Source: Gallionella sp.
GTDB lineage: Bacteria > Pseudomonadota > Gammaproteobacteria > Burkholderiales > Gallionellaceae
Assembly: GCA_028687575.1 (NCBI GenBank)
Contig: JAQTZW010000001.1
Span: 186,001 to 250,000, forward strand
Reading direction: 5' to 3'
Length of the DNA stretch: 64,000 bases
This document shows positions 18,892 through 37,353 of the stretch, in pieces. A model generated the notes under the pieces. The model was not told where the DNA came from, ran no database searches, and saw only the letters and a list, made by a program, of their open reading frames with translations. Made by a program: the position numbers and the translations under genes. Numbering within the stretch: position 1 is the stretch's first letter; every line of letters starts with the position of its first letter.

Positions 18892-18919
18892 GAAGGCCGC
18901 AACCTAGGTTGCGGCCTTC
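18892..18919. terminator. terminator-like perfect palindrome
   Basis: A perfect 28-bp palindrome is centred on CCTAGG (18903-18908) with GC-rich arms GAAGGCCGCAA and TTGCGGCCTTC. A short T-rich stretch (TATTTTCGTT) follows. It most likely ends the transcript of the PEP-CTERM-like gene before cysQ and can act in both directions. Confidence 0.7.
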
Positions 18920-18965
18920 CTATTTTCGTTAAATGATTTGACATATATGTATTATCAATAGCTTG

Positions 18966-19757
18966 ATGAATAATCTATTAAATGAAGTGGTTATGATTTC
19001 GCGGATGGCAGGCAGCGCTATCATGGAAAAATATCTAGATCCCGACAATCAAGTGAGCAGCAAAAGTGATAATTCACCTTTAACGGCGGCTGATTTGGCA
19101 GCGGATGCTGCTATAAATTCGGGAATTACAAGTCTCGGATATGACTGGCCTATGCTATCAGAAGAGTCATCTAAAATTTCTTTCAATATCCGCAAGCAAT
19201 GGGGACGTTACTGGCTAATTGATCCGCTTGACGGCACTAAAGAGTTTATCCGGCGCAATGGTGAATTTACCGTGAATATTGCGCTTATTGAAAAGGGCAT
19301 CCCGATACTTGGAGTGGTTTACGCACCTGCTATGGATGTGTGTTACTTTGCCGCTGTAGGGGTTGGTGCATTCGTACGTCGAAATGGTGAAGTAAAGAAA
19401 ATCAAAACTAATACTCAAGTGGAAGGGGAGTTATTGAAAGTGGTTTCAAGCCGGTCACATAGTGATGCACGTACCGAGGCACTGTTGGAAAAGTTGGGTG
19501 AATGCTTTTGTGTGAGTATGGGGAGCTCCCTTAAGTTGTGCTTGGTTGCTGAGGGTTTGGCTGACTTTTATCCCCGATTGGGACCGACGATGGAGTGGGA
19601 TACAGCTGCAGCGCATGCAATTGTAAGTTGTGCTGGGGGGCGTGTATGTGATTCCGATGGCGTAGAATTGAACTACAATAAATCGAATTTGCATAACCCG
19701 GAATTTTTCGTTTTGCCTAGAGGTGACGAAAAGTTGTTAGATTTAGTGCGTAGTTGA
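18966..19757 (+). CDS. cysQ: 3'(2'),5'-bisphosphate nucleotidase CysQ
   Basis: This 263-residue enzyme removes the 3'-phosphate from PAP, the by-product of PAPS-using sulfotransferases, giving AMP. It belongs to the lithium-sensitive inositol monophosphatase fold. SEES (about 65-68), the metal-binding DPLDGTKEF (about 86-94) and WDTAAAHAIVSCAGG near the C-terminus are all present. The ATG at 18966 is preferred over the TTG at 18963. It heads a group with cysC and a sulfotransferase, so its job here is probably to clear PAP produced by that sulfotransferase rather than to serve cysteine synthesis. Confidence 0.9.
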   Translation: MNNLLNEVVMISRMAGSAIMEKYLDPDNQVSSKSDNSPLTAADLAADAAINSGITSLGYDWPMLSEESSKISFNIRKQWGRYWLIDPLDGTKEFIRRNGEFTVNIALIEKGIPILGVVYAPAMDVCYFAAVGVGAFVRRNGEVKKIKTNTQVEGELLKVVSSRSHSDARTEALLEKLGECFCVSMGSSLKLCLVAEGLADFYPRLGPTMEWDTAAAHAIVSCAGGRVCDSDGVELNYNKSNLHNPEFFVLPRGDEKLLDLVRS

Positions 19758-19776
19758 ATGAGTGATTGGAATCTAA

Positions 19777-20403
19777 TTGAATAAAACTTCTTCCTCGTCG
19801 ATATCAAGTAATGTCTTATGGCAGCATTCCATCGTCACACGTAATCTTCGCGAAGCGCAAGGCGGGCATCGTGGTGTAATTGTATGGTTCACGGGGCTGT
19901 CTGGATCGGGAAAGTCAACACTAGCGCATAGTGTAGAAGAGCGCTTGTTTAACCTTGGCTGCAAAACTTTTGTGCTTGATGGGGATAATGTACGTCATGG
20001 ACTTTGCGGCGACCTCGGATTTTCTGAGCAGGATAGAGTCGAGAATATTCGACGTGTCGGAGAGGTTGCGAAGCTTTTTATGCAAGCAGGTGTGATTGTC
20101 CTTACTGCCTTTATTTCTCCCTTTCGTGAAGATCGCGCACGGGTCAGAAACCTAGTCGGAAACGGTGATTTTATCGAAGTATTTTGCGATGCCACACTTG
20201 CGGTATGCGAAAGTCGTGATGTAAAAGGCCTATATAAAATGGCCAGAGCAGGGAAAATTGCAGAATTTACCGGTATTTCTTCTCCCTACGAGAAGCCAGA
20301 AGCACCGGACTTAATCGTTGAAACGGGGGGGGCTGATTTGGATGCTTGTGTGAACGAGGTGATAAATCTACTCATTCATCACGACGTGATTAAATCGGCA
20401 TGA
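19777..20403 (+). CDS. cysC: adenylyl-sulfate kinase CysC
   Basis: This 208-residue kinase phosphorylates APS to PAPS, the sulfate donor. Walker A is GLSGSGKST (about 40-48), and [25 protein letters not shown] and the lid FISPFREDR are textbook CysC. The start appears to be a TTG at 19777, since a TAA lies immediately upstream in frame and no ATG occurs before the kinase core. It lies 19 bases after cysQ. No ATP sulfurylase gene is seen in the window, so APS must come from elsewhere. Confidence 0.92.
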
Positions 20404-20496
20404 ACGTTACGAACGAACCAACTAATCCAGTGAGCAAGCAAAGTCTAATTTCGCGTAATTTACTTCGAGTTAGCCAAATCGCTTTTGCATAATGAA

Positions 20497-21972
20497 ATGA
20501 TTATTTATTTCTTTTCAGTCCCGGTGGGCATTCTCCTCTCTGAAATTTCTATTACCTTCTTTGGTGGTCAATGGTTCAGAGCCATGCTGGCTGAGGTGGG
20601 GGGGAAACTGCATGAGTTCCAGCGTGCAACTGGGGATGATGTACGTCAGGAGTTACTCTTGCGAACAGGGAAAATGACATTGCAGTTTAGTTTTACGGTA
20701 CTTGGGGTGATATTGGTTCTAGGCGGTATTGCTTTTCTCCCGCCCTGGATGCTCGATTGTGATGAGGTGCAGCAGATGAGCTATGTTGTGGCTGTGTCCG
20801 TGGTTGCCACTGTATGGTGGTTAATCAGACGTCCTAGGAGTGGCACAGCTGATCTGTCCCCTATGCCCCAAAAATATGACCATAGTTATGGTGTAATGGA
20901 TAAGTGGCTGCACTGGCTTGCGCTTCATCCCGCAACGGTACGCCATCTTGCGTTTGATTTGGAACGTCAGTTTGCTCTGCCAATTTCTGGCACTGATGCC
21001 AACTTGGGGGTGGGAAAAGATGCCGCAGCTGGTTCGGTATATGTCTGTGGGTTGGCACGTTCTGGCACAACTATGTTGTTGCGTATTCTCGACGAAATCA
21101 AGGATTTTAGGTCGCTGACTTATCGTGACATGCCGTTTGTTCTTGCCCCAAATATATGGCGGAAAGTAACACGCCATACCAAACAGCAGGCGCTGGTCAA
21201 GGAGCGTGCGCACGGCGACGGCATTCTGGTAAGTGTGGATAGTCCAGAGGGTTTGGAGGAAGTTTTCTGGCGTACGTTCGGAACGCAGATGTGTAATCCT
21301 GATTGTTTTGGTTTTGATGAACCTACTAAGGATGTGTTAGCAACCTTTGCTGATTATCGAGCGATCGTCGCAAATCCGCGAACGGAAAATACTTCCGAGA
21401 ATAGTGTGCTGAAGCGATATTTATCAAAGAATAATAACAACCTGCTCCGTTTACGTAGTCTTTGTGCCGATCCAACTGCGACGGTATTGTTGGTATATCG
21501 TAATCCATTTGCTACGGCGCGTTCCTTACATCGCCAACATCAGCGTTTTTGTATTTCTCAATCCAGTGATCCATTTACGCGGGCTTATATGGGTTGGTTG
21601 TCCCATTACGAATTTGGTCTTGATCACCTGCCGTTTTGCTTTGCTTTGTCTGAGATGTCAGGCAAGTACTCGCCTACTGATTTGAATTACTGGTTGGACT
21701 ATTGGAATGCTGTCTACCGTTATGTGCTTTCACTGGGTGATTTGGGATATTGCCTGGTAAGTCACGATGCGCTTCGAGTCAATCCCTCCGCGGCCTTGAC
21801 CAAACTTTTTGAAGTGCTCGATGTCAGCGCGGATGTTGAAGTGCTTGCACAACAGATTGCTGCCCCTGATGCGGAGACTAGGGATGGGTTTTCACCTGAA
21901 CTCATTAATCAAGCCGCAGCAACATATCTAGAGTTGCTTGAAAGTTCCAAGAATATTTTTCTTGTCAATTAA
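20497..21972 (+). CDS. membrane-anchored PAPS-dependent sulfotransferase
   Basis: This 491-residue protein has hydrophobic segments at about 3-20, 62-83 and 93-110, followed by a cytoplasmic sulfotransferase domain. VYVCGLARSGTTMLLRIL (about 181-198) is the PAPS 5'-phosphate loop, and VYRNPFATARSLHRQ (about 333-347) supplies the Arg and Ser of the 3'-phosphate site. KNNNNLLRL is also typical of the family. The acceptor could be a sugar or lipid at the membrane. A TTG at 20485 is an alternative start. It sits between cysC, which makes its donor, and two ASST-like proteins. Confidence 0.85.
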   Translation: MIIYFFSVPVGILLSEISITFFGGQWFRAMLAEVGGKLHEFQRATGDDVRQELLLRTGKMTLQFSFTVLGVILVLGGIAFLPPWMLDCDEVQQMSYVVAVSVVATVWWLIRRPRSGTADLSPMPQKYDHSYGVMDKWLHWLALHPATVRHLAFDLERQFALPISGTDANLGVGKDAAAGSVYVCGLARSGTTMLLRILDEIKDFRSLTYRDMPFVLAPNIWRKVTRHTKQQALVKERAHGDGILVSVDSPEGLEEVFWRTFGTQMCNPDCFGFDEPTKDVLATFADYRAIVANPRTENTSENSVLKRYLSKNNNNLLRLRSLCADPTATVLLVYRNPFATARSLHRQHQRFCISQSSDPFTRAYMGWLSHYEFGLDHLPFCFALSEMSGKYSPTDLNYWLDYWNAVYRYVLSLGDLGYCLVSHDALRVNPSAALTKLFEVLDVSADVEVLAQQIAAPDAETRDGFSPELINQAAATYLELLESSKNIFLVN

Positions 21973-22007
21973 CAGGCTGAGAACGGATAGACTGTCATTG
22001 TTCCAAT

Positions 22008-23537
22008 TTGAATTTGGAAAACTATATAACGCAGCATCCTGCATACGTTAGAATCAAACATTATTTCAGGCTTATCGAGAAATTTTTGTTACTACTGCGT
22101 CGCCACAGGAAACTTAAAATATCATCTGACCAGCCCTGTCAAACGCCAGTATATGGATGGTCGTTTTGGTTCTGGTTGTCGGCTGTATTCTTGGTTGTAT
22201 TGCTTGCTTCAGTATTGTTCATCGCATCGGCTGTTCGGCATATCTCAGAAGATGGTACACGCTTTTCTGTTACGCAATCCCGCGTAATTATGTCGATTGC
22301 CGAATTTCCCTTTCTGGTTAAAACCGCATTGATTGAGCTAAAGTCATATTTTACGAATGAGCCACTTCCATTATTGTTGAGTCGAGAGGTAGTAGAGCAA
22401 CCCTACTGGGTGCGCAAGTTTCCCTCAACAACAGACACTGGATACTTATTGTTTTCGGGTGTTGATGCGTCGTCAAAGCGTGCTGTTGTCGAATTGATCA
22501 GGATTTCTGACGGGGTGGTGCTGGCGAAATGGGTGCCGGACTGGCCAGCAATTTTCAAGAAGACTAGCGCCAAGAAATATGCGCCACTGGGTAGTCAGTA
22601 TGCAGCCAAGCCAGTGCACCCCCTATTGCTTGCTGATGGCGATATCGTATTCGGTCACAATGGCGGCTCGTTGGTTAGGATGAGCCCTTGCAGTTCTGAG
22701 CCGGTTTGGGTGCTTGATGAAGTCATTCATCACTCCATTGAGCTTGATTTGAATGGGGCTGGCATTTGGGCACCTTCTGTTTCGCTGGATGGATTTTCCG
22801 ATAATCCTTGGCTACAGGGACGTGTGCGGGATGATGCCATCGCACATGTTTCGCTTGATGGTCGCTTGCTTGAAAGATTTTCATTTGCTCGCATTCTGCG
22901 ACAAAACGGTCTGCAGGCTTTGCTGTTGGGAATGTCTGGTGAGCGGTTGAGCAGAGATCCCATTCATTTGAATGAAATCAAAGTGGCTCGAAGCGATTCA
23001 CGCTATTGGCAGCGCGGAGATCTGCTAATTTCATCACGCCATTTGAGCACGCTATTTCTGTATCGGCCATCTACTAACAAAATCCTTTGGTACAAAACCG
23101 GGCCTTGGATGAGTCAGCATTCGGCGGATTTTGTAGATGAACATCGTATTTCCGTGTTCGATAATCATGTGACCGGTGGGGGATTTATGGATAAGTCCCA
23201 GGTGCTGATGAATCCACACGACATCAATCGGGTGTATGTATATGACTTCGATGATGGCAAGTTGACGCAGCCATTTGAGGCACTGCTTGCTGATGCACGC
23301 CCTTTGACAATCACAGCTGGGCGGGCGCGCATACTTCCCGATGGGGGATTGTTTCTTGAAGATACCAATAACGGCAGGGATATGCGGTTTTCAAAGGAAA
23401 GTTTGCTATGGTCGCGTATCAACGATTTTGATGAGAAGCGAATCGGCGTGGTGTCATGGGGGCGTTACTTGACAGCCGAGGAAGCCGCTGTCCCTTTGCG
23501 CGCAATTACTGCACGGCATTGCCAGTGGATCAAGTGA
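22008..23537 (+). CDS. membrane-anchored arylsulfotransferase (ASST)-like protein, copy 1
   Basis: This 509-residue protein has one transmembrane helix (about 52-75) and a large, probably periplasmic, domain with propeller-like repeats. HHSIELD (241-247), DPIHLNEIK (317-325), ISSRHLSTLFLY (341-352) and GPWMSQHSADFVDEHRISVF (365-384) match the arrangement of ASST enzymes. In E. coli AssT, a His, an H-x-N pair, an Arg and a second His form the active site. Here H241/242, H320 with N322, R344 and H371 are candidates. ASST moves sulfate between phenolic groups without PAPS. The start is a TTG with no better option. A paralogue follows directly. Confidence 0.7.
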   Translation: MNLENYITQHPAYVRIKHYFRLIEKFLLLLRRHRKLKISSDQPCQTPVYGWSFWFWLSAVFLVVLLASVLFIASAVRHISEDGTRFSVTQSRVIMSIAEFPFLVKTALIELKSYFTNEPLPLLLSREVVEQPYWVRKFPSTTDTGYLLFSGVDASSKRAVVELIRISDGVVLAKWVPDWPAIFKKTSAKKYAPLGSQYAAKPVHPLLLADGDIVFGHNGGSLVRMSPCSSEPVWVLDEVIHHSIELDLNGAGIWAPSVSLDGFSDNPWLQGRVRDDAIAHVSLDGRLLERFSFARILRQNGLQALLLGMSGERLSRDPIHLNEIKVARSDSRYWQRGDLLISSRHLSTLFLYRPSTNKILWYKTGPWMSQHSADFVDEHRISVFDNHVTGGGFMDKSQVLMNPHDINRVYVYDFDDGKLTQPFEALLADARPLTITAGRARILPDGGLFLEDTNNGRDMRFSKESLLWSRINDFDEKRIGVVSWGRYLTAEEAAVPLRAITARHCQWIK

Positions 23538-23580
23538 GCTGGATGAAGAGGCAGGGTTCGGGATACATGGAAGCATGTGA

Positions 23581-25029
23581 ATGATGATGAATCAAGATGC
23601 TTCATCAAAAATTAGGTCTCGGGTAAAAAATCCACTTGGTGTGAGATTCTGGATATGGTTGCTATCAGCTTGCATGCTGGTGCTAATCGTTTCGGTGCTA
23701 TTCAGTGCTTGGGCTGTTTGGCATGCGCAGATGGGCGGAACTCGTTTCTCCGGCTCACAGTTGCGTATGGTTAACTATGTTGCCAATTTCCCATCGCTGG
23801 CGCGTACGGCTTTTCAGGAAGTTGGCGCGATGCTTACCGGCGATCCGTTGCCCTTACTGATTGACCGAAAGACGACAGAGCATCCGTATTGGGTGAGGAA
23901 ATTTCCTGCAGCCGAGGACGATGGTTACCTGTTGTTTTCTGGCGTTGATCAGTCAGAAAAGCAGTCAGTCGTGAAATTGATACGGATTTCGGATGGCAGT
24001 GTAATCGCACGCTGGGTGCCAGACTGGCCTGCATTGCTGGCATTGGCTGCGCCAAAAAATGCCACTCATTTGATTGAAACCGTGCGTAGTCCTTATGCTG
24101 CCAAAGCCATACATCCCTTGTTGTTAAATGATGGCGATATTATTTTTCAGGATACTGGCTGGATTACACGGGTTGGGTTGTGCGGTGCAAAGCCGGTTTG
24201 GCTGTTAAATGAAATCATGCACCATTCACTTGAGATGGATGAAACGGGTCTGGGCATCTGGGGGCCTTCTATTTCTCAAGAGGGTTTTGCTGATAATCCA
24301 TTCATGCAAAAGCGTGTGCGCGATGATGCCTTGGCGCATGTTTCTCTGGATGGAAAAGTGCTGGAGCAGCTTTCGTTTTCTCGCATATTGCGAGAAAACG
24401 GTCTTCAGTCGTTATTGATGGGAACCTCCGGGGGGCGACTCAAGCAAGATCCGACACATCTTAATGAGATCAAGGTGGCAAAGTCGGACTCGCATTATTG
24501 GCATCGGGGAGACTTGCTCATTTCCTCGCGGCACCTCAGCACCCTTTTCCTTTATCGTCCTTCCACTGGCAAGATTCTCTGGTACAAGACAGGACCGTGG
24601 ATGAATCAGCATGCTGTGGATTTTGTTGATGAACATAGAATTTCGGTATTCAACAACAATGTCGTCGCGGATGTGCCAGCCGAACATGCTTTTCTTGTGC
24701 CAGGCGAGACGAATCAGGTCATGGTTTATGATTTTGCGACCGGACAGGTCACTCAGCCTTTTGCGGCCTTGCTTGCAGTCGCCCGTCCATTGGCTTTTAG
24801 TGAGGGGCTTGCGCGCTTGCTTCCCGATGGAGGACTGTTTTTAGAAGAAACAATTTATGGTCGGCAGTTGAGATTTTCCAAGGATCGCCTGATATGGTCG
24901 CGGGTCAATGACTATGATGACAAGCATATCGGCATATTATCCTGGAGTCGTTATTTGACGGCGGAGGAGGCTAGGATTCCTTTGCAAGCCATTGCAAGTC
25001 GAAAATGTCAGCCGACCGTCAGTCATTAA
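23581..25029 (+). CDS. membrane-anchored arylsulfotransferase (ASST)-like protein, copy 2
   Basis: This 482-residue protein is a clear tandem paralogue of the preceding gene. Long stretches are nearly identical, for example YLLFSGVD, LIRISDG, DLLISSRHLSTLFLYRPST and RYLTAEEA. It has a single N-terminal transmembrane helix (about 24-47) and the same candidate active-site residues in MHHSLEMD, DPTHLNEIK, SSRHLS and GPWMNQHAVDFV. The N-terminal cytoplasmic part is about 25 residues shorter than in copy 1, and the tail (KCQPTVSH) differs. Retention of all key residues in both copies suggests both are active, perhaps on different acceptors. Confidence 0.7.
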   Translation: MMMNQDASSKIRSRVKNPLGVRFWIWLLSACMLVLIVSVLFSAWAVWHAQMGGTRFSGSQLRMVNYVANFPSLARTAFQEVGAMLTGDPLPLLIDRKTTEHPYWVRKFPAAEDDGYLLFSGVDQSEKQSVVKLIRISDGSVIARWVPDWPALLALAAPKNATHLIETVRSPYAAKAIHPLLLNDGDIIFQDTGWITRVGLCGAKPVWLLNEIMHHSLEMDETGLGIWGPSISQEGFADNPFMQKRVRDDALAHVSLDGKVLEQLSFSRILRENGLQSLLMGTSGGRLKQDPTHLNEIKVAKSDSHYWHRGDLLISSRHLSTLFLYRPSTGKILWYKTGPWMNQHAVDFVDEHRISVFNNNVVADVPAEHAFLVPGETNQVMVYDFATGQVTQPFAALLAVARPLAFSEGLARLLPDGGLFLEETIYGRQLRFSKDRLIWSRVNDYDDKHIGILSWSRYLTAEEARIPLQAIASRKCQPTVSH

Positions 25030-25326: not shown

Positions 25327-26607
25327 ATGAAAATAGCGATTGTTGGTCTTGGTTATGTAGGCTTGCCCCTGGCAGTAGAGTTTGGCAAGAAATTTCCCAC
25401 TATCGGTTTTGACCTGTCTGCAGAGAAGGTTGCAGCTTACCGCAACCATTTTGATCCGACAGGTGAAGTGAGTTCCGAGGATTTACGTGCAGCAACCCAG
25501 TTGACTTGCCATACCGACCCTGAACTTTTGCGTGATGCGGATTTCGTGGTTGTGGCCGTTCCGACACCGGTTGACGAAGCGCATCAACCTGACTTCACTC
25601 CGTTGGTGAAAAGTTCGGAAACCGTCGGCAAGTACTTGAAGCGCGGCGCAATCGTGGTTTACGAGTCTACCGTCTATCCCGGCGCTACCGAAGAGGTTTG
25701 TATCCCGTTGTTGGAAAAGCATTCCGGACTCAAGTGGAAGCAGGACTTTTTTGTCGGTTACAGCCCGGAGCGTATCAATCCCGGCGACAAGGAGCGCACA
25801 GTCACCAAGATCGTCAAGGTGGTGTCCGGTGATACGCCTGAGACATTGAAGACCGTTACCGATGTTTACGCCTCCGTGATTACGGCTGGTGTATGTCCGG
25901 CCAGCAGCATCAAGGTCGCCGAAGCATCCAAGGTGATCGAGAATACCCAGCGCGACTTGAATATTGCGCTGATGAACGAGTTGTCCATCATCTTCAACAA
26001 GATCGGCATTGACACGCTGGAAGTGTTGCAGGCTGCAGGTACCAAGTGGAACTTCCTGCCATTCCGTCCTGGTCTGGTGGGTGGGCACTGCATCGGTGTG
26101 GATCCTTACTACCTGACGCACAAGGCAGACATGCTGGGCTACCATCCTCAGGTCATTCTGGCCGGTCGTCGCATCAACGATGGCATGGCGGCCTATGTGG
26201 CACAACAAGCTGTCAAGCAGATTATTCAGGCGGGTGGCGTGGTCAAGGGGTCGAAAGTCATCGTACTGGGGCTGACCTTCAAGGAAAACTGCGGCGATCT
26301 GCGCAATAGCAAAGTGTCTGATCTGGTCAAGGAATTGCAGGAATTTGGTTGCGATGTGCAAGTTCACGATCCGTTGGCAGAAGCGGGTGAGGCCATGCAC
26401 GAATACGGCATTTCCTTGCAGGAGTGGGAGGCTTTGCCAAATGATGCCGATGCTATTGTGGCGGCAGTTTCCCACGCGGAGTATGTCAATCAACCGATTT
26501 CACAATTGCTATCCAAATTAAGGGCAGGCGGCGTGTTTGTGGATATCAAGTCAGCCTATCCTCAGGCTGAAATTCTGGCTGCTGGTTACAAGCTGTGGAG
26601 GCTGTAA
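25327..26607 (+). CDS. tviB: UDP-N-acetylglucosamine 6-dehydrogenase, TviB/WbpO type
   Basis: This 426-residue NAD-dependent enzyme oxidises C6 of a UDP-N-acetylhexosamine to the uronic acid in two steps. It has the Rossmann motif GLGYVGLP (7-14), [12 protein letters not shown], the catalytic Lys and Asn in [11 protein letters not shown] (about 202-212) and the active-site Cys in [13 protein letters not shown] (Cys about 255). Length and the [10 protein letters not shown] string fit the TviB/WbpO branch rather than UDP-glucose dehydrogenase. With TviC next door the product should be UDP-GalNAcA. It opens the surface polysaccharide cluster. Confidence 0.9.
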
Positions 26608-26609
26608 CG

Positions 26610-27665
26610 ATGGCTGAGTCTTTTCGTCAGTTGCAGTCGCGGCTGTCAGTCGAGCAGCATACTTGGCTGATCACTGGGGTGGCCGGATTTATCGGCAGCA
26701 ATCTGCTGGAGACACTACTGAAGCTCGATCAGCGTGTTGTCGGGCTGGATAACTTTGCTACCGGCCACCAGCGCAATTTGGATGAGGTCAGGTCGCTGGT
26801 GAGCGTTGAGCAATGGTCACGCTTTAGCTTCATCCGTGGCGACATCCGCAGTCTTGAGGATTGCCGGCAGGCCATGTCCTGTGTGCTGGATGGTGTGTCC
26901 TATCCGGTCGAATATGTCCTGCATCAGGCAGCTTTGGGGAGTGTGCCGCGCTCGGTCGAGAATCCCATCAATACCAACGAAACCAACATCAGCGGCTTTC
27001 TCAACATGCTGGTTGCCGCACGCGATGCCAAGGCGAAGGGCTTCGTCTATGCGGCGTCCAGCTCGACTTATGGTGACCATCCAGGGCTACCCAAGGTGGA
27101 AGACAAGATCGGCAAGCCGCTTTCTCCGTATGCTGTGACCAAATATGTCAACGAACTCTATGCCGACGTATTTGCCCGGGCCTATGGCTTCAATACCATC
27201 GGTCTGCGCTACTTCAATGTTTTCGGCCCGCGTCAGGACCCGGACGGGGCTTATGCTGCGGTGATCCCCAAATGGATCTCCAGCATGATCAAAGGTGAAT
27301 CGGTCTACATCAATGGAGATGGCGAAACGAGTCGTGACTTCTGCTTTATCGAGAATGTCTGCCAGGTCAATCTGCTCGCTGCGACCAGCGATAAACCCGA
27401 GTCTGTGAATCAGGTTTATAACGTGGCCGTGGGGGATCGCACCACGCTGAATGAGTTGTACGGCCAGTTGCAACGCAATCTGCTGGCAGCCTATCCACAC
27501 CTCAAGGATGCCAAGCCTGTCTACCGCGATTTCCGCGCTGGCGACGTGCGCCATTCACTTGCCGACATCAGCAAGGCAGCTACATTGCTCGGTTATCAAC
27601 CCACGCACGATATTGGTGAAGGATTGAAAGTGGCGATGCAGTGGTATGTGCGTCACGTAGGTTAG
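26610..27665 (+). CDS. tviC: UDP-N-acetylglucosamine(uronate) 4-epimerase, TviC/WbpP type
   Basis: This 351-residue short-chain dehydrogenase-type epimerase has GVAGFIGSN (about 23-31), the catalytic Tyr and Lys in SPYAVTKY (about 174 and 178) and [25 protein letters not shown] is a hallmark of the WbpP/TviC branch, which accepts N-acetylated UDP-sugars. The ATG at 26610 has GGAGG at good spacing. It starts three bases after the tviB stop. Together the two enzymes convert UDP-GlcNAc to UDP-GalNAcA. Confidence 0.9.
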
Positions 27666-27802
27666 CCGTATTGACCTTCCCTCCAGTTTGGCCCCCCCGC
27701 CATCAGCTCGTCGCTGGGTTTGGATGTGCCGGTTGCCCTGAGGGGCGGTAGGGGGTGTCGAGTCGTGAGTGTTTAACAATTACTTAATTATCAGGTCATT
27801 TT

Positions 27803-28576
27803 ATGAAGGCAGTGATACTTGCTGGTGGATTGGGGACGCGGATCAGCGAAGAAACCTCTACGCGACCGAAGCCCATGGTGGAGATTGGTGGCAAGCCGAT
27901 CTTGTGGCACATCATGAAAGGCTATTCCGTACACGGCATCAATGAGTTTGTGGTGTGTTGCGGCTACAAGGGCTATGTCATCAAGGAATATTTTGCCAAT
28001 TATTTCCTGCACATGTCCGATGTCACTTTTGACATGCAGCACAACAAGATGGAAGTTCACCAGCGCCATGCCGATCCTTGGAAAGTGACGCTGGTGGATA
28101 CCGGTGACAACACAATGACGGGCGGGCGGCTGAAACGGGTGGCAGACTATGTGCGTGATGAAGAGGCTTTTTGCCTGACATATGGTGACGGGGTCAGCAA
28201 CGTCAATATCACGGAGTTGCTTGCCTTTCACAAGGCACAGCAGGTCAAGGCGACATTGACTGCAGTGCTGCCGCCAGGCCGTTTCGGCGCACTCGACATG
28301 CAGGGCAACAAAGTCAATAGCTTCAGGGAAAAGCCTCAGGGAGATGGCGCGCTGATCAATGGTGGATTCTTTGTGTTGTCACCACAGGTCATAGACTACA
28401 TCGGTGGAGATGCAACGACTTGGGAGCGTGAACCCATGGAAAAATTGGCGGAAGACGGCGAATTGGCCGCCTATCACCATGATGGTTTCTGGCAGCCGAT
28501 GGATACTTTGCGTGACAAAATGCATCTTGAAGAATTATGGCAATCTGGCGGCGCACCATGGAAGACTTGGGAATGA
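27803..28576 (+). CDS. rfbF: glucose-1-phosphate cytidylyltransferase RfbF
   Basis: This 257-residue nucleotidyltransferase makes CDP-glucose, the first step to CDP-3,6-dideoxyhexoses. The start [20 protein letters not shown] with [19 protein letters not shown] is the signature, and the length equals that of known RfbF. The stop overlaps the next start (ATGA), coupling it to rfbG. The preceding 137-base gap has a GC-rich imperfect inverted repeat (about 27694-27757) but no gene. Confidence 0.93.
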
Positions 28577-29637
28577 ATGTTCAGTTCTGGCGCGGTAAGC
28601 GCGTGCTGCTGACCGGGCATACCGGTTTCAAGGGGAGTTGGTTGTCGCTTTGGTTGCAGTCCATGGGGGCGGAAGTGGTGGGATATGCGCTGGCCCCGCC
28701 GACCACTCCCAGCCTGTTCGAAATTGCCAATGTCACGGCTGGCATGACACATATCGAGGGTGATATTCGTGATTTGGCGCATTTGCGCGCGGTATTTGCC
28801 GAGCATCAGCCCGAGATCGTGATTCATATGGCGGCACAAGCCCTGGTGCGCCATTCCTACGCCGAGCCGGTCGAAACCTATTCCACTAATGTGATGGGCA
28901 CGGTCAACGTGCTGGAAGCTGTGCGCAACGCCGGTTGCGTCAAGGCGGTGGTGAATGTCACCAGCGACAAGTGCTATGAGAATCGGGAATGGGTGTGGGG
29001 TTACCGCGAGAATGAGGCGATGGGCGGTTTCGATCCCTACAGCAACAGCAAGGGTTGTGCCGAACTGGTAGCTTCGGCGTACCGCAGCTCATTCTTCAAT
29101 CCCGAGAAATTTCAGCAACATGGCGTGGCGCTGGCGTCTGCCCGCGCTGGCAACGTCATTGGCGGCGGCGACTGGGCGGAAGATCGTCTGATACCGGATA
29201 TCTTGCGTGCGATAACCGCAGGCCGGCCGGTACATATCCGCAGCCCGCATGCGATTCGTCCTTGGCAGCATGTGCTGGAGCCGCTGTCCGGATACCTGTT
29301 GCTGGCCGAGAGGTTGTTCACGGAGGGCGTGGCTCACGCCGAGGGCTGGAATTTCGGCCCTAATGATGAAGATGCCAAGCCGGTGCAGTGGATTGTTGAA
29401 CGATTGACCGAGACTTGGGGGGATGGGGCGAGCTGGGTACTGGATGGTGGTGAACACCCGCACGAAGCGCATTACCTGAAATTGGACTGTTCCAAGGCGC
29501 GGATGCGTTTGGCGTGGCAGCCGAGATGGCGTTTGGAAGCAACACTCGAAAAGATTGTCGAATGGCATCGGGCATTACAGAATGGGCAAGACATGCGTGA
29601 AGTCACCCTGAAACAGATTAGTGCCTACATGGCGTGA
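28573..29637 (+). CDS. rfbG: CDP-glucose 4,6-dehydratase RfbG
   Basis: This 354-residue NAD-dependent enzyme converts CDP-glucose to CDP-4-keto-6-deoxyglucose. It has [15 protein letters not shown] near residue 15, [24 protein letters not shown] and the catalytic YSNSKGCAE, all typical of RfbG. The ATG at 28573 overlaps the rfbF stop by four bases. The product feeds RfbH. The order rfbF-rfbG-rfbH is that of enteric and Yersinia dideoxyhexose clusters. Confidence 0.93.
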
Positions 29638-29673
29638 TTTGCCGAAAATTGAATTGAAATCGTAGAGGTCAGC

Positions 29674-30987
29674 GTGGATAAAGAAGTCATCAAGCAACAA
29701 ATCTTGAATCTGGTCGAGCAATACAGTGCGTTGCAGTATGCGGCGCAGCCTTTTGCAGCTGGTTCGACGGTCGTTCCACCCTCAGGCAAAGTAATCGGTG
29801 CGCCTGAGCTAAAGAACATGGTCGAAGCCTCGCTGGACGGCTGGCTCACCACGGGGCGGTTTAACGAGGCGTTCGAGAAACGTTTTGCGGAATTCGTTGG
29901 CGTACCTTATGCCTTGACCACCACGTCCGGTTCATCGGCCAACCTGCTGGCATTCACCGCATTGACCTCGCACAAGTTGGGTGCGCGCGCACTGAAACCG
30001 GGTGATGAAGTCATTACGGTTGCCGCAGGTTTCCCCACCACCGTCAACCCGATGCTGCAAAACGGCATGGTTCCGGTATTTGTGGATGTGGACATCCCCA
30101 CCTACAACATTGACCCGGCCAAAATCGAAGCGGCGTTGAGCGAGCGCACCCGCGCCATCATGGTGGCGCACACGCTGGGCAATCCGTTTGATCTGGCTGC
30201 CGTCATGGCCGTGGCTGAGAAACATAATCTGTGGGTCATCGAGGATTGCTGCGACGCGCTGGGTTCGCGTTACAACGGGCAACACGTCGGCAGTTTCGGG
30301 CATATCGCTACCTGCAGCTTCTACCCCGCACATCACATCACTATGGGTGAGGGTGGTATGGTGTTTACCAAGGATCGTGACTTGCGCACCATCATCGAAT
30401 CATTCCGTGATTGGGGGCGTGACTGCTACTGCGCGCCAGGTTGCGACAATACCTGCGGCAAGCGCTTCGGTCAGCAGCTAGGTTCCTTGCCTACCGGCTA
30501 TGACCACAAATACACCTATTCGCATTTGGGCTATAACCTCAAAATTACTGACATGCAGGCGGCCTGTGCGCTGGCACAGATGGACCGCCTGCCGGGATTG
30601 ATCGAGGCACGCAAACACAATTTCGCCTTCCTCAAAGAGCGACTGAAATCCTGCGAAGAGTTTCTCATCCTTCCGGAAGCGACTGCCAATAGCGAACCAT
30701 CATGGTTCGGCTTCCCGATCACGCTGCGCGAATCTGCCAACATCGAGCGGGTGGAATTGTTGAAATATCTCGATCAATACAAAATCGGCACGCGCTTGCT
30801 GTTCGCAGGAAATCTCACTCGCCAACCGTATTTTGAAGGGCGCACTTACCGTGTCAGCGGCGAGTTGAGCAACACTGACACCATCATGAACAACACCTTA
30901 TGGATAGGCGTATTTCCGGGGTTGACCGAAGAAATGCTGGGCTTCGTGGTTGAGAAGTTCGAAACATTCTTCGGCGTGAATTTCTAA
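29674..30987 (+). CDS. rfbH: CDP-4-keto-6-deoxyglucose 3-dehydrase RfbH (E1)
   Basis: This 437-residue PMP- and iron-sulfur-dependent enzyme removes the C3 hydroxyl from the CDP-hexose. It resembles an aminotransferase, but the PLP-binding Lys is replaced by His in [14 protein letters not shown] (about 220), as in Yersinia E1. A [2Fe-2S] cluster is expected from [11 protein letters not shown] (about 251-261). It begins with GTG. E1 needs an NADH reductase partner (E3, RfbI/AscD), which is not encoded in this window. Confidence 0.93.
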
Positions 30988-31536
30988 ATGTTCGACCTGA
31001 AACCGAGTTGTCTTGCAGGATGCTTTGAGTTGCAGCCCAAGGCGTTTGACGATAATCGTGGAAGATTTGTAAAAGTCTTTCACGAACAGGCATTTGCTGA
31101 GCAGGGCTTGGAAACCGGTTTCGCCGAGGAATATTACTCGCTGTCCCACAAGAACGTGGTCAGGGGCTTACACTTCCAGTTGCCGCCGATGGATCACGTC
31201 AAGATGGTGTATTGCGTGTCGGGAGAGGTGCTGGATGTGGTCGTAGACCTAAGGGTGGGATCTCCGACTTACGGTCAACATGCCTTGTTTGCATTGAGTG
31301 CAGGCAAGGCCAATAGCGTCTATATCCCCAAGGGTATGGCGCACGGTTTTTGCGTGCTCAGTGAGCAGGCGATCATGGTGTACAAGGTCAGCACAATCTA
31401 TTCCCCGGCGCATGATGCCGGGATATTGTGGGATTCTGCAGGGATTCCGTGGCCGTTGAGTCAGGCTATCGTATCTGCGCGCGATCAGGGATTTCCAACT
31501 TTTGATCAATTCGTAAGCCCGTTTATATATGAGTGA
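30988..31536 (+). CDS. RmlC-like sugar epimerase, probably CDP-dideoxyhexulose 5-epimerase (AscE-like)
   Basis: This 182-residue cupin-fold epimerase has the RmlC motifs DDNRGRF, VVRGLHFQLPP (catalytic His about 62), VVVDLRVGSPTYG, IPKGMAHGF and a catalytic-type Tyr around 132-138. No dTDP-glucose pathway gene is nearby. It lies directly between rfbH and a reductase, as in the CDP-L-ascarylose pathway, where an RmlC homologue (AscE) epimerises C5. That makes ascarylose the best guess for the product sugar. Its stop overlaps the next gene by eight bases. Confidence 0.75.
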   Translation: MFDLKPSCLAGCFELQPKAFDDNRGRFVKVFHEQAFAEQGLETGFAEEYYSLSHKNVVRGLHFQLPPMDHVKMVYCVSGEVLDVVVDLRVGSPTYGQHALFALSAGKANSVYIPKGMAHGFCVLSEQAIMVYKVSTIYSPAHDAGILWDSAGIPWPLSQAIVSARDQGFPTFDQFVSPFIYE

Positions 31537-32446
31537 AATCAATAAGCTGCAAGCAAAAAAACCTGTGGCGCTGGTAACCGGCGCCACAGGTTTTGTGGGA
31601 GGCCATCTTGCCACTCGGTTGTTGAAAGACGGATGGGATGTACACATCCTGATTCGTAACGGCTCGGTGCTTCCGGAGCAGCCCGAGTTTGGACGTATGG
31701 CCTGTCATGTGCATGACGGCAGCACAGAAAGCATGATTGCTTGCCTGGCAAATGCCAAGCCGGATATTGTGTTCCATCTGGCATCATTATTTCTTTCACA
31801 GCATGCCAGCAAGGATATAGACGCGCTGATACGCAGTAACGTGCAGTTCGCTACGCAGCTGCTGGAAGCTATGAATGCCAACCTATGCACCCGCCTAGTC
31901 AATACCGGCACATCCTGGCAACACTACAACAATGAAGACTACAACCCGGTGTGTTTGTATGCCGCGACCAAACAGGCTTTTGAAGCTATTCTGGAATATT
32001 ACGTCCAAGCCTGTAGTTTCAAAGCCATCACGCTGAAGCTGTTTGACACCTATGGGCCGGGTGATTTGCGTCCCAAACTGTTCCATCTGTTGAACAAGGC
32101 TGCGGCATCCGGCGAGGCGCTTGATATGTCGGCGGGAGAGCAATTTATTGATCTGGTGCATATTGATGACGTGATGGAAGCCTTCCTGATAGCGGCGCAG
32201 CGGCTGCTCGATGGCAAAGTCCCGGTATCGGAAAGCTATGCAGTTTCCTCGGGGCAGCCGTTGCCGCTGAAGGACTTGGTGGCACTTTATGCCGAAGTTT
32301 CCGGTCAGACTATCCGCGTGAACTGGGGCGCGCGCCCTTACCGCTACAGAGAAGTGATGGCCCCCTGGAATCGAGGGGCATCCTTACCTGGCTGGAAGCC
32401 GCAAATTTCGCTGTCCGAGGGGATGAAGTCCCTCAAGAATCATTAA
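31529..32446 (+). CDS. NAD(P)-dependent reductase, CDP-dideoxyhexose synthase-like (AscF/RfbJ type)
   Basis: This 305-residue short-chain dehydrogenase has GATGFVGGHLATRL near the N-terminus and a Tyr-Lys pair in CLYAATKQAFE. NTGTSWQHYNNEDYNPV and KLFDTYGPGDLR resemble CDP-abequose and CDP-paratose synthases. In this context it should reduce the 4-keto group to finish the CDP-3,6-dideoxyhexose. With the upstream 5-epimerase the product would be CDP-L-ascarylose; without it, CDP-abequose or CDP-paratose. The stereochemistry cannot be read from sequence. Confidence 0.72.
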   Translation: MSEINKLQAKKPVALVTGATGFVGGHLATRLLKDGWDVHILIRNGSVLPEQPEFGRMACHVHDGSTESMIACLANAKPDIVFHLASLFLSQHASKDIDALIRSNVQFATQLLEAMNANLCTRLVNTGTSWQHYNNEDYNPVCLYAATKQAFEAILEYYVQACSFKAITLKLFDTYGPGDLRPKLFHLLNKAAASGEALDMSAGEQFIDLVHIDDVMEAFLIAAQRLLDGKVPVSESYAVSSGQPLPLKDLVALYAEVSGQTIRVNWGARPYRYREVMAPWNRGASLPGWKPQISLSEGMKSLKNH

Positions 32447-32473
32447 TTGAACGACTTTTTGATTGAATGATTT

Positions 32474-33523
32474 ATGACTAATGAGCACAACGAAAAAATC
32501 CTGAGCCTTTGCATTCCCACCTACAACCGAGGCGAGAGACTGGGCAAGCTGTTGCGCCATATTTATGGCCTAAGTGACTCCATCAAGTCCAGAATCCAGA
32601 TTTGCGTTTCCGATAATTGTTCATCAGACATTACGCCAGAGGTTATCAATGAGTGGCGCGATAAGCTGAGTCTGATCGTCGTACGTCAAGAGACAAACAT
32701 AGGTTTGTCACGGAATTTCCAAGCTGTCGTGGGGTTGGCGACGACCCCCTGGATTTTCGGGATGGGGGACGATGACTTGCTGGTAGAGCAAGGCTTTGAG
32801 AATGTACTTTCGGTGCTTGATACACTTCCTTCTAATACTTGGGTGTTGGGTAATGTGCGCGAGCCCAATGGCTCCACATTGCTGGACATCATGTCCCCGG
32901 GTTTTTGTTCTATAGCTGAGTTCAAGCGAAAAATTCTCTTTGATTCGCTTTTCTATTCCGTTGGCTTCATCAGTATCCATATCATGCCGCGCGAGGCCGT
33001 TCAGAGATTCTCGGCATTCAAGTCGGAACCCATACCCGGATGGCCTAATTTGGCCTTGCTCTTCCATGTGCTTAAGGATGTACAGCTTTATGTGGAAAAG
33101 GAGTGTGTCGTCGTTCGCATGGGTGATGGGAGCCTTTCCCAAACTTGGCGGGCAAAGGATTGGCTACGGGTCGTGATGGAAAAGATCAAACTGTCCTGCC
33201 GCTCGGAACACGGCCAGAATCTGTTTTCGACAGCGCTGGCGATGCGCGAGTATATGAGTTGGGACTTCTCTCGGCAAACTCTGTTTTCCGCGATGGTGAC
33301 CGGAGAAAAACGCCAGTTGCGACAGGAAATCAACAGCTATCTGGATGCAACGAATATTCATTCAATGGCTAGACTAATTATCAAAGTCTTTATTTTTATT
33401 TTGCTATTGTTCCCGATAGGGTTGATAGCCTTTGCCAGGAAGTTGAGAAATCCGGCAGCCGAGGATGCCAGCAAGCTGGAAAAAGTCGTGGACGAAAAGG
33501 ATGGAATGAACAGGGGTATCTGA
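32474..33523 (+). CDS. glycosyltransferase family 2, dideoxyhexosyltransferase-like
   Basis: This 349-residue GT-A enzyme has LSLCIPTYNRGERLGKLLRH at the start, VSDNCSSD and the metal-binding GMGDDDLL. A C-terminal hydrophobic stretch (about 298-320) would tether it to the membrane. RfbV-like abequosyltransferases share this layout. Its position right after the CDP-dideoxyhexose genes suggests that it transfers that sugar. Confidence 0.78.
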   Translation: MTNEHNEKILSLCIPTYNRGERLGKLLRHIYGLSDSIKSRIQICVSDNCSSDITPEVINEWRDKLSLIVVRQETNIGLSRNFQAVVGLATTPWIFGMGDDDLLVEQGFENVLSVLDTLPSNTWVLGNVREPNGSTLLDIMSPGFCSIAEFKRKILFDSLFYSVGFISIHIMPREAVQRFSAFKSEPIPGWPNLALLFHVLKDVQLYVEKECVVVRMGDGSLSQTWRAKDWLRVVMEKIKLSCRSEHGQNLFSTALAMREYMSWDFSRQTLFSAMVTGEKRQLRQEINSYLDATNIHSMARLIIKVFIFILLLFPIGLIAFARKLRNPAAEDASKLEKVVDEKDGMNRGI

Positions 33524-33544
33524 GCGTGGCGATTGGAAGAAAAT

Positions 33545-33563
33545 GGGAATGATGCCCATTCCC
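33545..33563 (+). terminator. weak stem-loop after the dideoxyhexose genes
   Basis: GGGAATG (33545-33551) pairs with CATTCCC (33557-33563) over a 5-base loop, starting 21 bases after the stop at 33523. It has no good T-run (TGTTAAG), so it may only attenuate. It falls in a 118-base gap before the FAD-protein gene. Confidence 0.35.
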
Positions 33564-33641
33564 TGTTAAGCATGTATGTCCTGTAGACAAATTTATTTGA
33601 TGTGATGCGGAATCTGCCGCAAATTATTTCGCCGTGTATTG

Positions 33642-34946
33642 ATGAGATCCGCCATAGAAAATAGCGTAGTCATTTTGGGAGCTGGCATTGCCGGTATCTC
33701 TGCGGCTTATCATCTTCGAAAAGCTGGCATCAGTGCGGCTGTATATGAGGCGAATGCAACTGCTGGTGGATTGCTGGATAATTTTTGCATCGAAGGATTC
33801 CGTTTTGACAATGCGGTACACCTCTCATTTGCGACAGAGCCTGAGGTGAGGGCGGTTTTCGACCGTACACCGTATCTGACACATCCGGCAGTTTCGTGGT
33901 GTTGGGATGACGGGCTTTGGCTTAAGCATCCAGTACAGAACAATATGTTCCCTATCGAAGTTGCCCAGCGGGTGGAGTTGATTTCCGGCTTTGTTGCGCG
34001 TCCCAATATTGAGGTAAAGAACTACCGTGACTGGCTAAACTACCAGTATGGTGAGGCAATCGCATCCCGTTGGTCATTGCCCTATACGGAGAAGTATTGG
34101 ACAGTTCCTGCGGAGCAACTTGGAATTGGCTGGATAGGTGATCGTGTCAGACGGGCTGATCTTCAGGAAGTGTTATATGGCGCGTTCACCTCCGAAACGC
34201 CCAGTTATTATTATGTTTCAGAAATGCGATACCCCTGCGCGGGTGGGTACCGTGCTTTTATTGAACCGATGATCGCGGAGGTTGATATTCATTGTCAGCA
34301 TCGAGTAACTGGCATCAGCCTGTCACGCAGGCATGTGTATTTCGATAATGACCGTTCAACGGGTTTCGATGTCCTGATCAATACCCTTCCGCTACCCGAA
34401 CTGATTGCGCTGATAGATGAGGTGCCGGAGCAGGTGCGCACTGCTGCGGGAACGCTTTTTGCCACTTCGGTTGACCTGATTTCGGTGGGTTTTCGCAAGG
34501 CTGATGTGCAGCCCAACTTGTGGTTTTATATTTACGACAACGATATTCTGGCGGCGCGAGCCTATTCCCCGAGCATCAAATCGCCTGAAAATGTTCCGGC
34601 GGGGTGTAGTTCGCTACAATTTGAAATCTACTCGTCCCAGCGCAAGCCGCAGACGCATACGCCTGAAGAAATGAAACGCAACACCATGATGGGCCTTCAG
34701 AAAATGGGGATGGTGAAGGATGAAGATGACGTGCTCTTCATGCATCACAAGAAGCTGGAATGGGGGAATGTCGTCTTTGATCTGGGCATGGAAGAGCGTC
34801 GTGCGATAGTGCGCGACTGGCTGGAAACAGTTGGAATTTTGACCGCAGGGCGCTTCGGGGAGTGGGATTATCTCTGGAGTAATCAGGCTTTCATGAGCGG
34901 CTTGAGAGCGGCTGAAGCAGTCAAGCTGCGCGGGGTGGGGCAATGA
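33642..34946 (+). CDS. FAD-dependent oxidoreductase, amine oxidase / UDP-galactopyranose mutase-like
   Basis: This 434-residue flavoprotein begins with a dinucleotide-binding motif VVILGAGIAGISAAYHLRKAG, then AVYEANATAGGLL. FDNAVHLSF, PYTEKYWTVPAEQLGIGWIG and GRFGEWDYLWSNQAFMSGL near the C-terminus resemble proteins found in many O-antigen clusters and distantly UDP-galactopyranose mutase. The substrate is unknown. It overlaps the flippase gene by four bases, so it is part of the same transcript. Confidence 0.75.
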   Translation: MRSAIENSVVILGAGIAGISAAYHLRKAGISAAVYEANATAGGLLDNFCIEGFRFDNAVHLSFATEPEVRAVFDRTPYLTHPAVSWCWDDGLWLKHPVQNNMFPIEVAQRVELISGFVARPNIEVKNYRDWLNYQYGEAIASRWSLPYTEKYWTVPAEQLGIGWIGDRVRRADLQEVLYGAFTSETPSYYYVSEMRYPCAGGYRAFIEPMIAEVDIHCQHRVTGISLSRRHVYFDNDRSTGFDVLINTLPLPELIALIDEVPEQVRTAAGTLFATSVDLISVGFRKADVQPNLWFYIYDNDILAARAYSPSIKSPENVPAGCSSLQFEIYSSQRKPQTHTPEEMKRNTMMGLQKMGMVKDEDDVLFMHHKKLEWGNVVFDLGMEERRAIVRDWLETVGILTAGRFGEWDYLWSNQAFMSGLRAAEAVKLRGVGQ

Positions 34947-36379
34947 GCACCCTGAAGAATACCATTGCCAATATAGCCGGCGCGATCATTCCGCTGATCT
35001 TTTCAATCCTGACCGTACCGCTTTATCTCAAGCTCATCGGTGAGGAGCGTTATGGCATATTGGCAGTCATCTGGGTGCTACTGGGATATTTCGGCGTATT
35101 CGATTTGGGGTTGGGGAAGGCTACGACCCAACGGATGGCCAGCATTGAGAGTGAGTCCGAGCGTAGTGAGTTGCTGTGGACGGTATTGGCGTTGACCATC
35201 GTTCTGGGCGTGTTGGGTGGTCTGGTGTTATTGTTTTCGTCCGACTGGATGTTGACGCATCTGTTTTCACTGGAGGGTGACAGCAGGCGTGAAGCGCTAG
35301 ATAGTACATCGTGGTTGCCTGTTGGGCTAATCCTGCTACTGCTCAATTCCGCGATGAAGGGGTCATTGCAGGCACGTGAACGTTTTGTGGAAATCAACTC
35401 GGCTTCAGTACTGGGTGATTCAATGGCGCAACTGTTACCGCTTATCGCGGCATGGTTTGGCTATGTGACCATTGATTTGTTATTGCCTGCGGTATTGGCT
35501 GCGCGGTTATTGACTGCCGTATTGCTGTTTGTGCAGTGCTACAGACATGTTCCACTGTCCAAGAGTCTCAGGATCAAAATGACGCATGTGAAACCTTTGC
35601 TGACATACGGAGGGTGGGCCAGTATGGTTACGATGAGTGGGCCGTTGATGACGGTAATCGAGCGTACGGTGATCGCCTCAATTGCCGGTGCCAAAGGCGT
35701 CACATTTTTTACGGTGCCATTCAATCTGGTCTCCAAACTTTCCATATTGCCCAATAGTTATGGCGGTGTCTTGTTCCCTAAATTGGCTTCTTTGCCAGAG
35801 CAGGACTCAAAGGTCTTGGCAGAACAAGCTGTACGAAATATCGTTGCCTTGATGACGCCGTTGGTAATCTTTGGCATGGGAGTGTTGCACCCCTTCCTGA
35901 TATTGTGGCTGGGGTCTGATTTGGCAGCGAGATGCGCCGGAATCGGGGAGTTGATCCTGTTAGGGGTATGGGTCAGTGCGGTCATTGTGCCGCATTCGTA
36001 CAAACTTTATGCGGAAGGATTGCTGAAAAAAAAGATACTGATAGTAACAATGACAGAAATTCCATTGTATGCACTCATGTTGTGGCTGGGGGTGCGGTAT
36101 TTCGGGATTTTAGGTGCTGCGGCAGCTTGGTCGCTGCGCGTGTTGATAGATGCGATATTGTTTCTGATTCTTGCCAAGGCCTTGCGTGAAGTGGTGTGGT
36201 TCTCACTCAGTTCCATATTTCTGGTTGCCATGGCAACTATTGTAGTATTGTCATTCGATGTGCTGGTGGTGTGGCGCTGGTTCGCTATCACCGCACTCAT
36301 TGCATTATCTGTCGCTATAAATTGGCAACTGTGCGTTGGCGCATACAAGTCGCTGACTGCCCGATTTTCCGCTGGATGA
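34943..36379 (+). CDS. wzx: Wzx-type oligosaccharide flippase
   Basis: This 478-residue integral membrane protein has about 12-14 hydrophobic segments from IIPLIFSILTVPLYLKLIG onward, the profile of the polysaccharide transporter family. It should move undecaprenyl-linked repeat units across the inner membrane. Together with the EpsG-like protein at 46516 it indicates a Wzx/Wzy pathway. The gene symbol follows function; sequence alone gives only the family. Confidence 0.85.
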   Translation: MSTLKNTIANIAGAIIPLIFSILTVPLYLKLIGEERYGILAVIWVLLGYFGVFDLGLGKATTQRMASIESESERSELLWTVLALTIVLGVLGGLVLLFSSDWMLTHLFSLEGDSRREALDSTSWLPVGLILLLLNSAMKGSLQARERFVEINSASVLGDSMAQLLPLIAAWFGYVTIDLLLPAVLAARLLTAVLLFVQCYRHVPLSKSLRIKMTHVKPLLTYGGWASMVTMSGPLMTVIERTVIASIAGAKGVTFFTVPFNLVSKLSILPNSYGGVLFPKLASLPEQDSKVLAEQAVRNIVALMTPLVIFGMGVLHPFLILWLGSDLAARCAGIGELILLGVWVSAVIVPHSYKLYAEGLLKKKILIVTMTEIPLYALMLWLGVRYFGILGAAAAWSLRVLIDAILFLILAKALREVVWFSLSSIFLVAMATIVVLSFDVLVVWRWFAITALIALSVAINWQLCVGAYKSLTARFSAG

Positions 36380-37322: not shown

Positions 37323-37353
37323 TTATTGGCAAGTCGGCAGGGCGGCCTTAACT

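Follow-up and report, generated by a model that had tools for sequence, protein, structure and literature searches.

The five-gene candidate sulfation locus

The 64,000-nucleotide stretch of Gallionella sp. DNA analysed here (assembly GCA_028687575.1, contig JAQTZW010000001.1, positions 186,001 to 250,000; hereafter the window) carries, at positions 18963-25029 of its plus strand, five co-directional genes that encode CysQ, CysC, a membrane-anchored sulfotransferase (ST), and two arylsulfotransferase-like proteins (ASST1 and ASST2). The genes are separated by gaps of 19, 81, 35, and 43 nt, counted from the starts of the open reading frames (ORFs) as listed; CysQ could start with TTG at 18963 or with ATG at 18966. 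The same five products had been named in the first-pass annotation, made from the sequence alone, and profile scores above the respective cut-offs uphold that inventory. The features of the locus, all on the plus strand, are as follows.

18963..19757, +, CysQ, a 3'(2'),5'-bisphosphate nucleotidase for removal of 3'-phosphoadenosine 5'-phosphate (PAP); TIGR01331 equivalog above cut-off, Inositol_P
19777..20403, +, CysC, an adenosine 5'-phosphosulfate (APS) kinase that makes 3'-phosphoadenosine 5'-phosphosulfate (PAPS); TIGR00455 above cut-off, PF01583 genome search
20485..21972, +, ST, a membrane-anchored PAPS-type sulfotransferase; Sulfotransfer_3 above cut-off, invariant residues, profile comparison with solved PAPS sulfotransferases
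20497..20838, +, N-terminal membrane domain of ST (residues 5-118); ntm profile, hydropathy and charge
22008..23537, +, ASST1, membrane-anchored, arylsulfotransferase-like; Arylsulfotran_2 E 4e-30, H242, H320-x-N322, R344, and H371, one N-terminal helix
23581..25029, +, ASST2, membrane-anchored, arylsulfotransferase-like; Arylsulfotran_2 E 2e-29, structural model, H215, H293-x-N295, R317, and H344
18892..18919, +, terminator-like hairpin that separates CysQ from the preceding gene; found by pattern scan (12 pairs, of which 8 are GC; shuffled sequence yields ∼7 sites of any strength)
25327..48657, +, O-antigen/exopolysaccharide (EPS) cluster, a candidate source of the acceptor, outside the conserved core; NCBIfam, Pfam for selected genes, ORFs

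The GC content of the five-gene block is 47.2%, as against 51 to 54% in its flanks, and a 297-nt gap on the 3' side separates it from the O-antigen/EPS cluster. Because none of the 40 relatives searched (24 of the same genus and 16 of the order) has an ASST2 match at E ≤ 0.001, the block is accessory and was probably acquired.

Conservation of the ST-ASST operon

ASST matches were detected in 24 of the 398 genomes of the phylum sample, and 25 loci were fetched, which comprise 14 module-type ASST loci (E ≤ 1e-50) and 11 weaker, other ASST-like loci (E ≥ 4e-43), with both thresholds set after the scores had been seen. An ST gene is found within 1.1 kb and on the same strand in 12 of the 14 module-type loci and in none of the 11 others. 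This count excludes the Gallionella genome with its three matches, the genomes used to build the profiles (including G112, which has the pair), second matches in the same gene (G745 and G585), and the partial matches on contigs C32 and C87 of genome G436; the tandem ASST genes of L086 are counted once. The two misses, L077 and L085, are additional copies; their genomes hold the operon at L078 and L084, respectively. In the class sample, the majority of whose loci went into building the profiles, ST is adjacent in 11 of 15 loci; the misses are L034, L035, L045, and L046, of which L035 and L045 are short contigs, and the genomes of L034 and L035 hold the pair elsewhere (L043 and L040). Among relatives in named genomes, ST adjoins in six of seven loci, the seventh (L009) being cut at a contig end. 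The reverse search gave a similar picture: the ST profile recognized 17 genomes at E ≤ 1e-90, a cut-off that was likewise set after the scores had been seen and that leaves out G744 (4e-54) and G039 (2e-13), and ASST adjoins in 14 of these 17, the Gallionella genome and G112 included. The survey of ST neighborhoods that the first-pass annotation had proposed thus shows the two genes to be conserved together far more often than by chance.

The pair is usually accompanied by membrane proteins. All 12 linked phylum loci encode the small protein cl3, in most cases from a gene located between those for ASST and ST. It has a signal-like helix, the sequence AYVGPGAG or one like it, another helix, and a basic tail. 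A second membrane protein was recognized in nine of the 12, namely cl4 (∼245 aa) in six and ntm (∼120 aa) in three, and went unrecognized in the remaining three, though space is left for it. cl4 is found in only 7 of the 398 genomes, in all seven within the ST locus. The ntm domain, which forms the N-terminal part of the Gallionella ST, is encoded by a separate ORF in L008, L039, L041, L084, and L086; its profile was built from seven sequences that include this ST and the L008, L039, and L041 proteins. Homology of cl4 and ntm is unsupported (hhalign probability 6%). The cl4 model (pLDDT 86.6) gave no PDB match below E 0.85, so no function can be read from its fold. Overall, the conserved operon has ST and ASST at its core and usually also includes cl3 and a second membrane protein.

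In three genomes of the reverse search no adjoining ASST was seen. In G435, ST lies near the contig start, where no neighbor call is possible. G782 (L123) encodes a 643-aa PF01663 protein between cl3 and cl4, with ST on the opposite strand, and in G505 (L121) the neighbors of ST are a weakly cl3-like protein and a membrane protein of 672 aa that belongs to the Sulfatase family (PF00884). In both, a gene of the alkaline phosphatase superfamily occupies the place expected for ASST:

L123:8769-10700, PF01663 protein
L121:7504-9522, PF00884 protein

These cases suggest that the partner enzyme of ST is exchangeable, although two cases are few.

The pair also occurs on plasmids. Of 36 matching plasmid records, 14 regions were inspected, the first five of them picked by their arylsulfotransferase family annotation, and an annotated ST lies beside ASST in seven and not in the other seven, with PLSDB gene tables being incomplete. 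Plasmid-borne pairs come from Paroceanicella, Tateyamaria, Paracoccus, Novosphingobium, Sagittula, Rhodobacter, and Rhodobacteraceae SC52; Paroceanicella profunda and Novosphingobium capsulatum are examples of species with all four genes of the operon. One Saprospiraceae metagenome-assembled genome (L012) carries the ST-ASST pair, and no cl3 was recognized there.

Active sites and predicted topology

ST scores 34.8 bits against Sulfotransfer_3 (PF13469; cut-off 27), and the ST profile reaches solved PAPS sulfotransferases with a best E of 4.7e-12. The R192-x-G194-x-T196 motif and the R339/S347 pair, which we take to be the PAPS loops, are invariant among 16 aligned homologues. In Sulfotransfer_3 enzymes, R-x-G is assigned to the PAPS loop (excerpt of PMC11625862). 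The ST-profile match covers residues 126-492 and is preceded by the membrane domain (residues 5-118), in which hydropathy reveals two clear transmembrane helices and inspection by eye a third near residues 99-114, followed by RRPR. Six Lys/Arg residues lie between the two clear helices, whereas the 25 residues that follow the second have none; because of this charge pattern, read by the positive-inside rule, the catalytic domain should be cytoplasmic. PAPS is located in the cytoplasm.

Both ASST proteins belong to the Arylsulfotran_2 family (PF14269; 105.7 bits for ASST1 and 103.3 for ASST2, cut-off 27), and also pass PF05935 (24.3 and 26.0 bits, cut-off 24.2). A mixed profile of 15 ASSTs reaches the AssT structure 3ELQ at E 1.4e-16 and aligns H215, R317, and H344 of ASST2 with H252, R374, and H436 of AssT (residue names from an excerpt of PMC13426309); chain 4P04, which carries Asn in the H436 column, marks that column. 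HMMER put H356-V-N358 of AssT in an insert, and it was paired with H293-x-N295 by its motif and its position before R374. The counterparts in ASST1 are H242, H320-x-N322, R344, and H371. The set of His, H-x-N, Arg, and His that the first-pass annotation had listed in both copies thus corresponds to the AssT active site. Among 40 module-type sequences that span the site, the three Gallionella copies included, H215, H293, N295, and H344 are kept in all 40 and R317 in 39 (one has Lys). A profile route through the Methylosinus ASST or L096 yielded no AssT among the matches listed. L096:6610-8397 is an ASST-like propeller whose C-terminal part weakly matches thioredoxin chains.

The ASST2 model, built from 23 sequences (pLDDT 86.3), is a propeller with Cpz4 as its best Foldseek match (9KF4, E 2.4e-10, and 9KF6, E 2.4e-9; template modeling score 0.47), and the profile search also puts Cpz4 first (E 3.5e-11). 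Each ASST has, by hydropathy, one N-terminal transmembrane helix, with more Lys/Arg residues before it than in the 25 residues after it (9 versus 3 in ASST1 and 5 versus 2 in ASST2). Because basic residues precede the helix, the propellers should face the periplasm, in agreement with the placement of the ASST step outside the cytoplasm at first pass. The topology proposed for ST and for the ASSTs is in each case a prediction from charge and hydropathy only.

A third ASST copy lies ∼90 kb further on the same contig (G000 C16:300721-302130; L005:8722-10134), directly downstream of a cl3 gene (AYIGPG; L005:8441-8671) and close to the ORFs of what reads like an ABC transporter of the phosphonate type.

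PAPS supply

CysQ and CysC are well assigned, with 286 bits against TIGR01331 (cut-off 228.8) and 263 bits against TIGR00455 (cut-off 138.7), respectively. CysC is the sole full APS kinase match in the genome; the only other PF01583 match (20.7 bits over 50 positions) falls in an ORF that reads like FtsY. The CysH-like protein of this genome has CC and CxxC motifs, which are presumably those of iron-sulfur APS reductases, and CysD- and CysN-like ORFs adjoin its gene; because of this combination, PAPS may be dispensable for sulfur assimilation here and could possibly serve sulfation. The distribution of CysC cautions against overreading this point: it is found at E ≤ 1e-30 in 42 of 61 genus genomes, the present one included, and in 16 of the 24 genus relatives that lack ASST (ASST status covers the Gallionella genome and these 24 of the 61).

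CysQ and CysC were also considered as parts of the conserved module and rejected, since CysC occurs in one other scanned locus (L007) and CysQ in none, in a scan with short flanks at several loci. The single five-gene module of the first-pass annotation accordingly holds for ST and ASST, which are kept together, whereas CysQ and CysC are outside the conserved core.

Candidate acceptors and neighboring genes

The adjoining cluster in the window contains TviB/TviC-like genes, rfbF-G-H-like CDP-sugar genes, glycosyltransferase-like ORFs, an EpsG-type polymerase, and an acyltransferase. The product of this O-antigen/EPS cluster is the most likely acceptor in Gallionella. Glycan genes adjoin the operon in the window, L006, L103, and L115.

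Elsewhere, the operon neighbors genes for osmoregulated periplasmic glucans. L032:7394-14356 is one co-directional run of opgG-opgH-ASST-cl3-ST with short gaps, in which OpgH is named by its glycosyltransferase match and its place; OpgG or OpgH also adjoins the module in L037, L038, L078, and L080. Such neighbors are seen in 5 of the 35 module-type loci outside the Gallionella genome and in none of the 11 other ASST-like loci, a rough comparison in which flank lengths differ and the five loci represent four families, with L037 and L038 from one genus. The L032 arrangement is a hint that periplasmic glucans could be sulfated. Their synthesis takes place at the inner membrane and on its far side, where PAPS is absent, and for that reason delivery of sulfate across the membrane is the natural reading at the opgG/opgH loci.

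Further genes lie on the 5' side of the block. Two genes for HipA-like kinases (10008-11366 and 15639-16949) lie ∼4 kb apart, and positions 17243-17780 hold what looks by eye like a RelB/DinJ-type antitoxin gene followed by a seemingly broken YafQ-like reading. The exported-looking protein encoded at 18044-18820, for which neither Pfam nor NCBIfam gave a match at E ≤ 0.001, ends by eye in a VPVSG-helix-RR tail that resembles a PEP-CTERM sorting signal.

A proposed sulfate relay and its alternatives

The best explanation of these data, and on balance a probable one, is that sulfate is relayed in two stages across the inner membrane. In its favor are the active-site match to AssT and Cpz4, the linkage of ST and ASST, the confinement of cl4 to ST loci, the predicted topology, the opgG-opgH-ASST-cl3-ST run in L032, and the chemical precedent of Cpz8/Cpz4. 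CysC would make PAPS and CysQ would clear PAP, as expected from their well-assigned families. ST, anchored in the membrane and with its catalytic domain on the cytoplasmic side, would transfer sulfate from PAPS to a carrier that resides in the membrane and is probably phenol-like; a quinol such as ubiquinol is one guess. Once charged, the carrier would reach the outer face, perhaps aided by the ST membrane domain and, in the relatives, by the small and the larger membrane proteins. There ASST would use the ST product as its donor, with H344 accepting the sulfuryl group in the manner of the AssT nucleophile H436, with which it aligns, and would pass it to a hydroxyl of an envelope molecule, here most likely the O-antigen/EPS product and, in species where opgG/opgH adjoin, the periplasmic glucans. 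A broader version is more tentative, namely that the operon represents a general way of delivering sulfate to the Gram-negative envelope, in which ST loads the carrier, the AYVGPGAG protein and cl4 or ntm move it, and the enzyme that unloads it outside onto periplasmic glucans, O-antigen, or EPS can vary, being ASST or, in two genomes, a member of the alkaline phosphatase superfamily.

A variant in which the glycan itself is the carrier appears unlikely: ST would sulfate a lipid-linked glycan unit inside the cell, and ASST would, after export, shift the sulfate to another position or chain. ST is membrane-bound and its family includes NodH, which acts on a glycolipid (excerpt of PMC11625862); some loci, that of the window among them, lie next to glycan genes; and Cpz4 is reported to favor sugar hydroxyl acceptors (excerpt of PMC13426309). 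However, the ASST donors named in that excerpt are mostly aryl sulfates, the ST-ASST pair is kept as its neighbors change, and some loci show no glycan genes. The opgGH glucan, moreover, is not known to be lipid-linked. It is rather unlikely, too, that ST and ASST act separately, with ST using PAPS on one product and ASST using external aryl sulfates to modify the same surface polymer or to detoxify phenols. Module-type ASSTs without a nearby ST (the third copy in L005; L034, L077, and L085) would fit such a division, as would the AssT of E. coli CFT073, which is thought to use urinary phenol sulfates (excerpt of PMC13426309), whereas the linkage in 12 of 14 versus 0 of 11 loci and the confinement of cl4 to ST loci speak for one pathway. 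A purely structural role of the propellers, as binding or scaffold parts of an envelope machine, is very improbable: propellers are common binding folds, and 970 PDB chains match the ASST2 model at E up to 0.001, but binding alone would not demand that the AssT catalytic set be kept in 40 of 40 sequences bar one Arg-to-Lys change.

Several observations weigh against the relay. Module-type ASSTs occur without a nearby ST in L005 (the third copy, with none in the 19 kb fetched), L034, L035, L077, and L085, and neither the tandem ASSTs nor the distant third copy is explained by it. The ST of G744 comes from a genome with no ASST match, and no such enzyme was recognized among its neighbors. Conservation of a neighborhood is evidence of a common function, not of a reaction sequence. 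The close agreement of ASST and ST distances over 29 loci (Mantel r 0.94, matched in 0 of 2000 permutations) fits the relay but is also expected from linked genes inherited together. No carrier gene is recognizable: unlike in the caprazamycin system, no type III polyketide synthase (PKS) scores above the cut-off in the Gallionella genome (one PF00195 match, 20.2 bits, below the cut-off). The structural comparison with AssT suggested at first pass was borne out as regards the propeller, best matched by Cpz4, but AssT is not among the best 50 fold matches of the ASST2 model, the Cpz4 match is itself moderate, and generic propellers come next at E ∼1e-8. As to acceptors, periplasmic glucans were rejected for Gallionella itself, where OpgG was not found by a search that was positive in E. 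coli. Only two of the seven plasmid loci with the pair (L103 and L115) lie among annotated glycan genes, and L102, L104, L105, and L114 sit among genes for transport or metabolism, so a glycan acceptor may not apply to every locus. The lack of glycan genes around several module loci lowers the standing of the relay and raises that of separate action; it also qualifies the first-pass proposal of the polysaccharide cluster as acceptor source, which agrees with the genes that follow in the window but does not extend to several relatives, whose operons lie among unrelated genes.

Relation to known systems

The principle of two-step sulfation, which the first-pass annotation took to be new, is already known from caprazamycin biosynthesis, where the PAPS-dependent Cpz8 makes an aryl sulfate that the ASST Cpz4 uses (excerpts of PMC4257720 and PMC13426309). 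The carrier there is a triketide pyrone (excerpt of PMC4257720, whose reference 41 has a type III PKS in its title). As in that system, a PAPS-dependent ST and an ASST are encoded together, and both the profile and the fold search rank Cpz4 first among solved structures. Here, however, no type III PKS exceeds the cut-off, and the locus is therefore not classed as a Cpz pathway; ST carries a membrane domain, both ASSTs are anchored in the membrane, the operon of the relatives encodes two extra membrane proteins, and some of the neighbors are genes for envelope glycans.

AssT of uropathogenic E. coli (3ELQ) shares the ASST family and the catalytic residues; it is described as periplasmic, with DsbL/DsbI as partners and unknown natural substrates (excerpt of PMC13426309). 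Unlike there, no dsb gene adjoins in the window, where the immediate neighbors are ST and a TviB-like dehydrogenase. A DsbB gene lies ∼0.4 kb from the module cl3 gene in L040 (5636-6139, by Pfam) and L043 (5890-6387, of the same cluster), which recalls the Dsb partners of AssT. NodH-type enzymes share the PF13469 domain with R-x-G in the PAPS loop; NodH acts on the final glycolipid, whereas the ST described here has a membrane domain and usually an ASST partner. The proposed relay would further resemble the carrier-lipid relays familiar from OpgB with phosphatidylglycerol and from undecaprenyl-phosphate sugars, in which a group is activated inside and delivered outside by a second enzyme, except that the group would be sulfate. 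No description of this operon or of sulfated periplasmic glucans was found in searches of open-licence papers, judged mainly by titles and abstracts, which is weak evidence of novelty; what seems to be new is the membrane-bound form of the relay, partly tied to envelope glycans.

According to a 2026 review (excerpt of PMC13426309), it is unknown for most bacterial ASSTs which acceptors they use in nature and what physiological role they play, and the conserved partner ST offers the concrete idea that the ASST donor is made by the neighboring gene. If correct, the relay would explain how sulfate is placed outside the cytoplasm, where PAPS is absent, and would predict sulfated periplasmic glucans in those species in which opgG/opgH adjoin the operon. 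It would also make the two uncharacterized families of membrane proteins candidate movers of the carrier.

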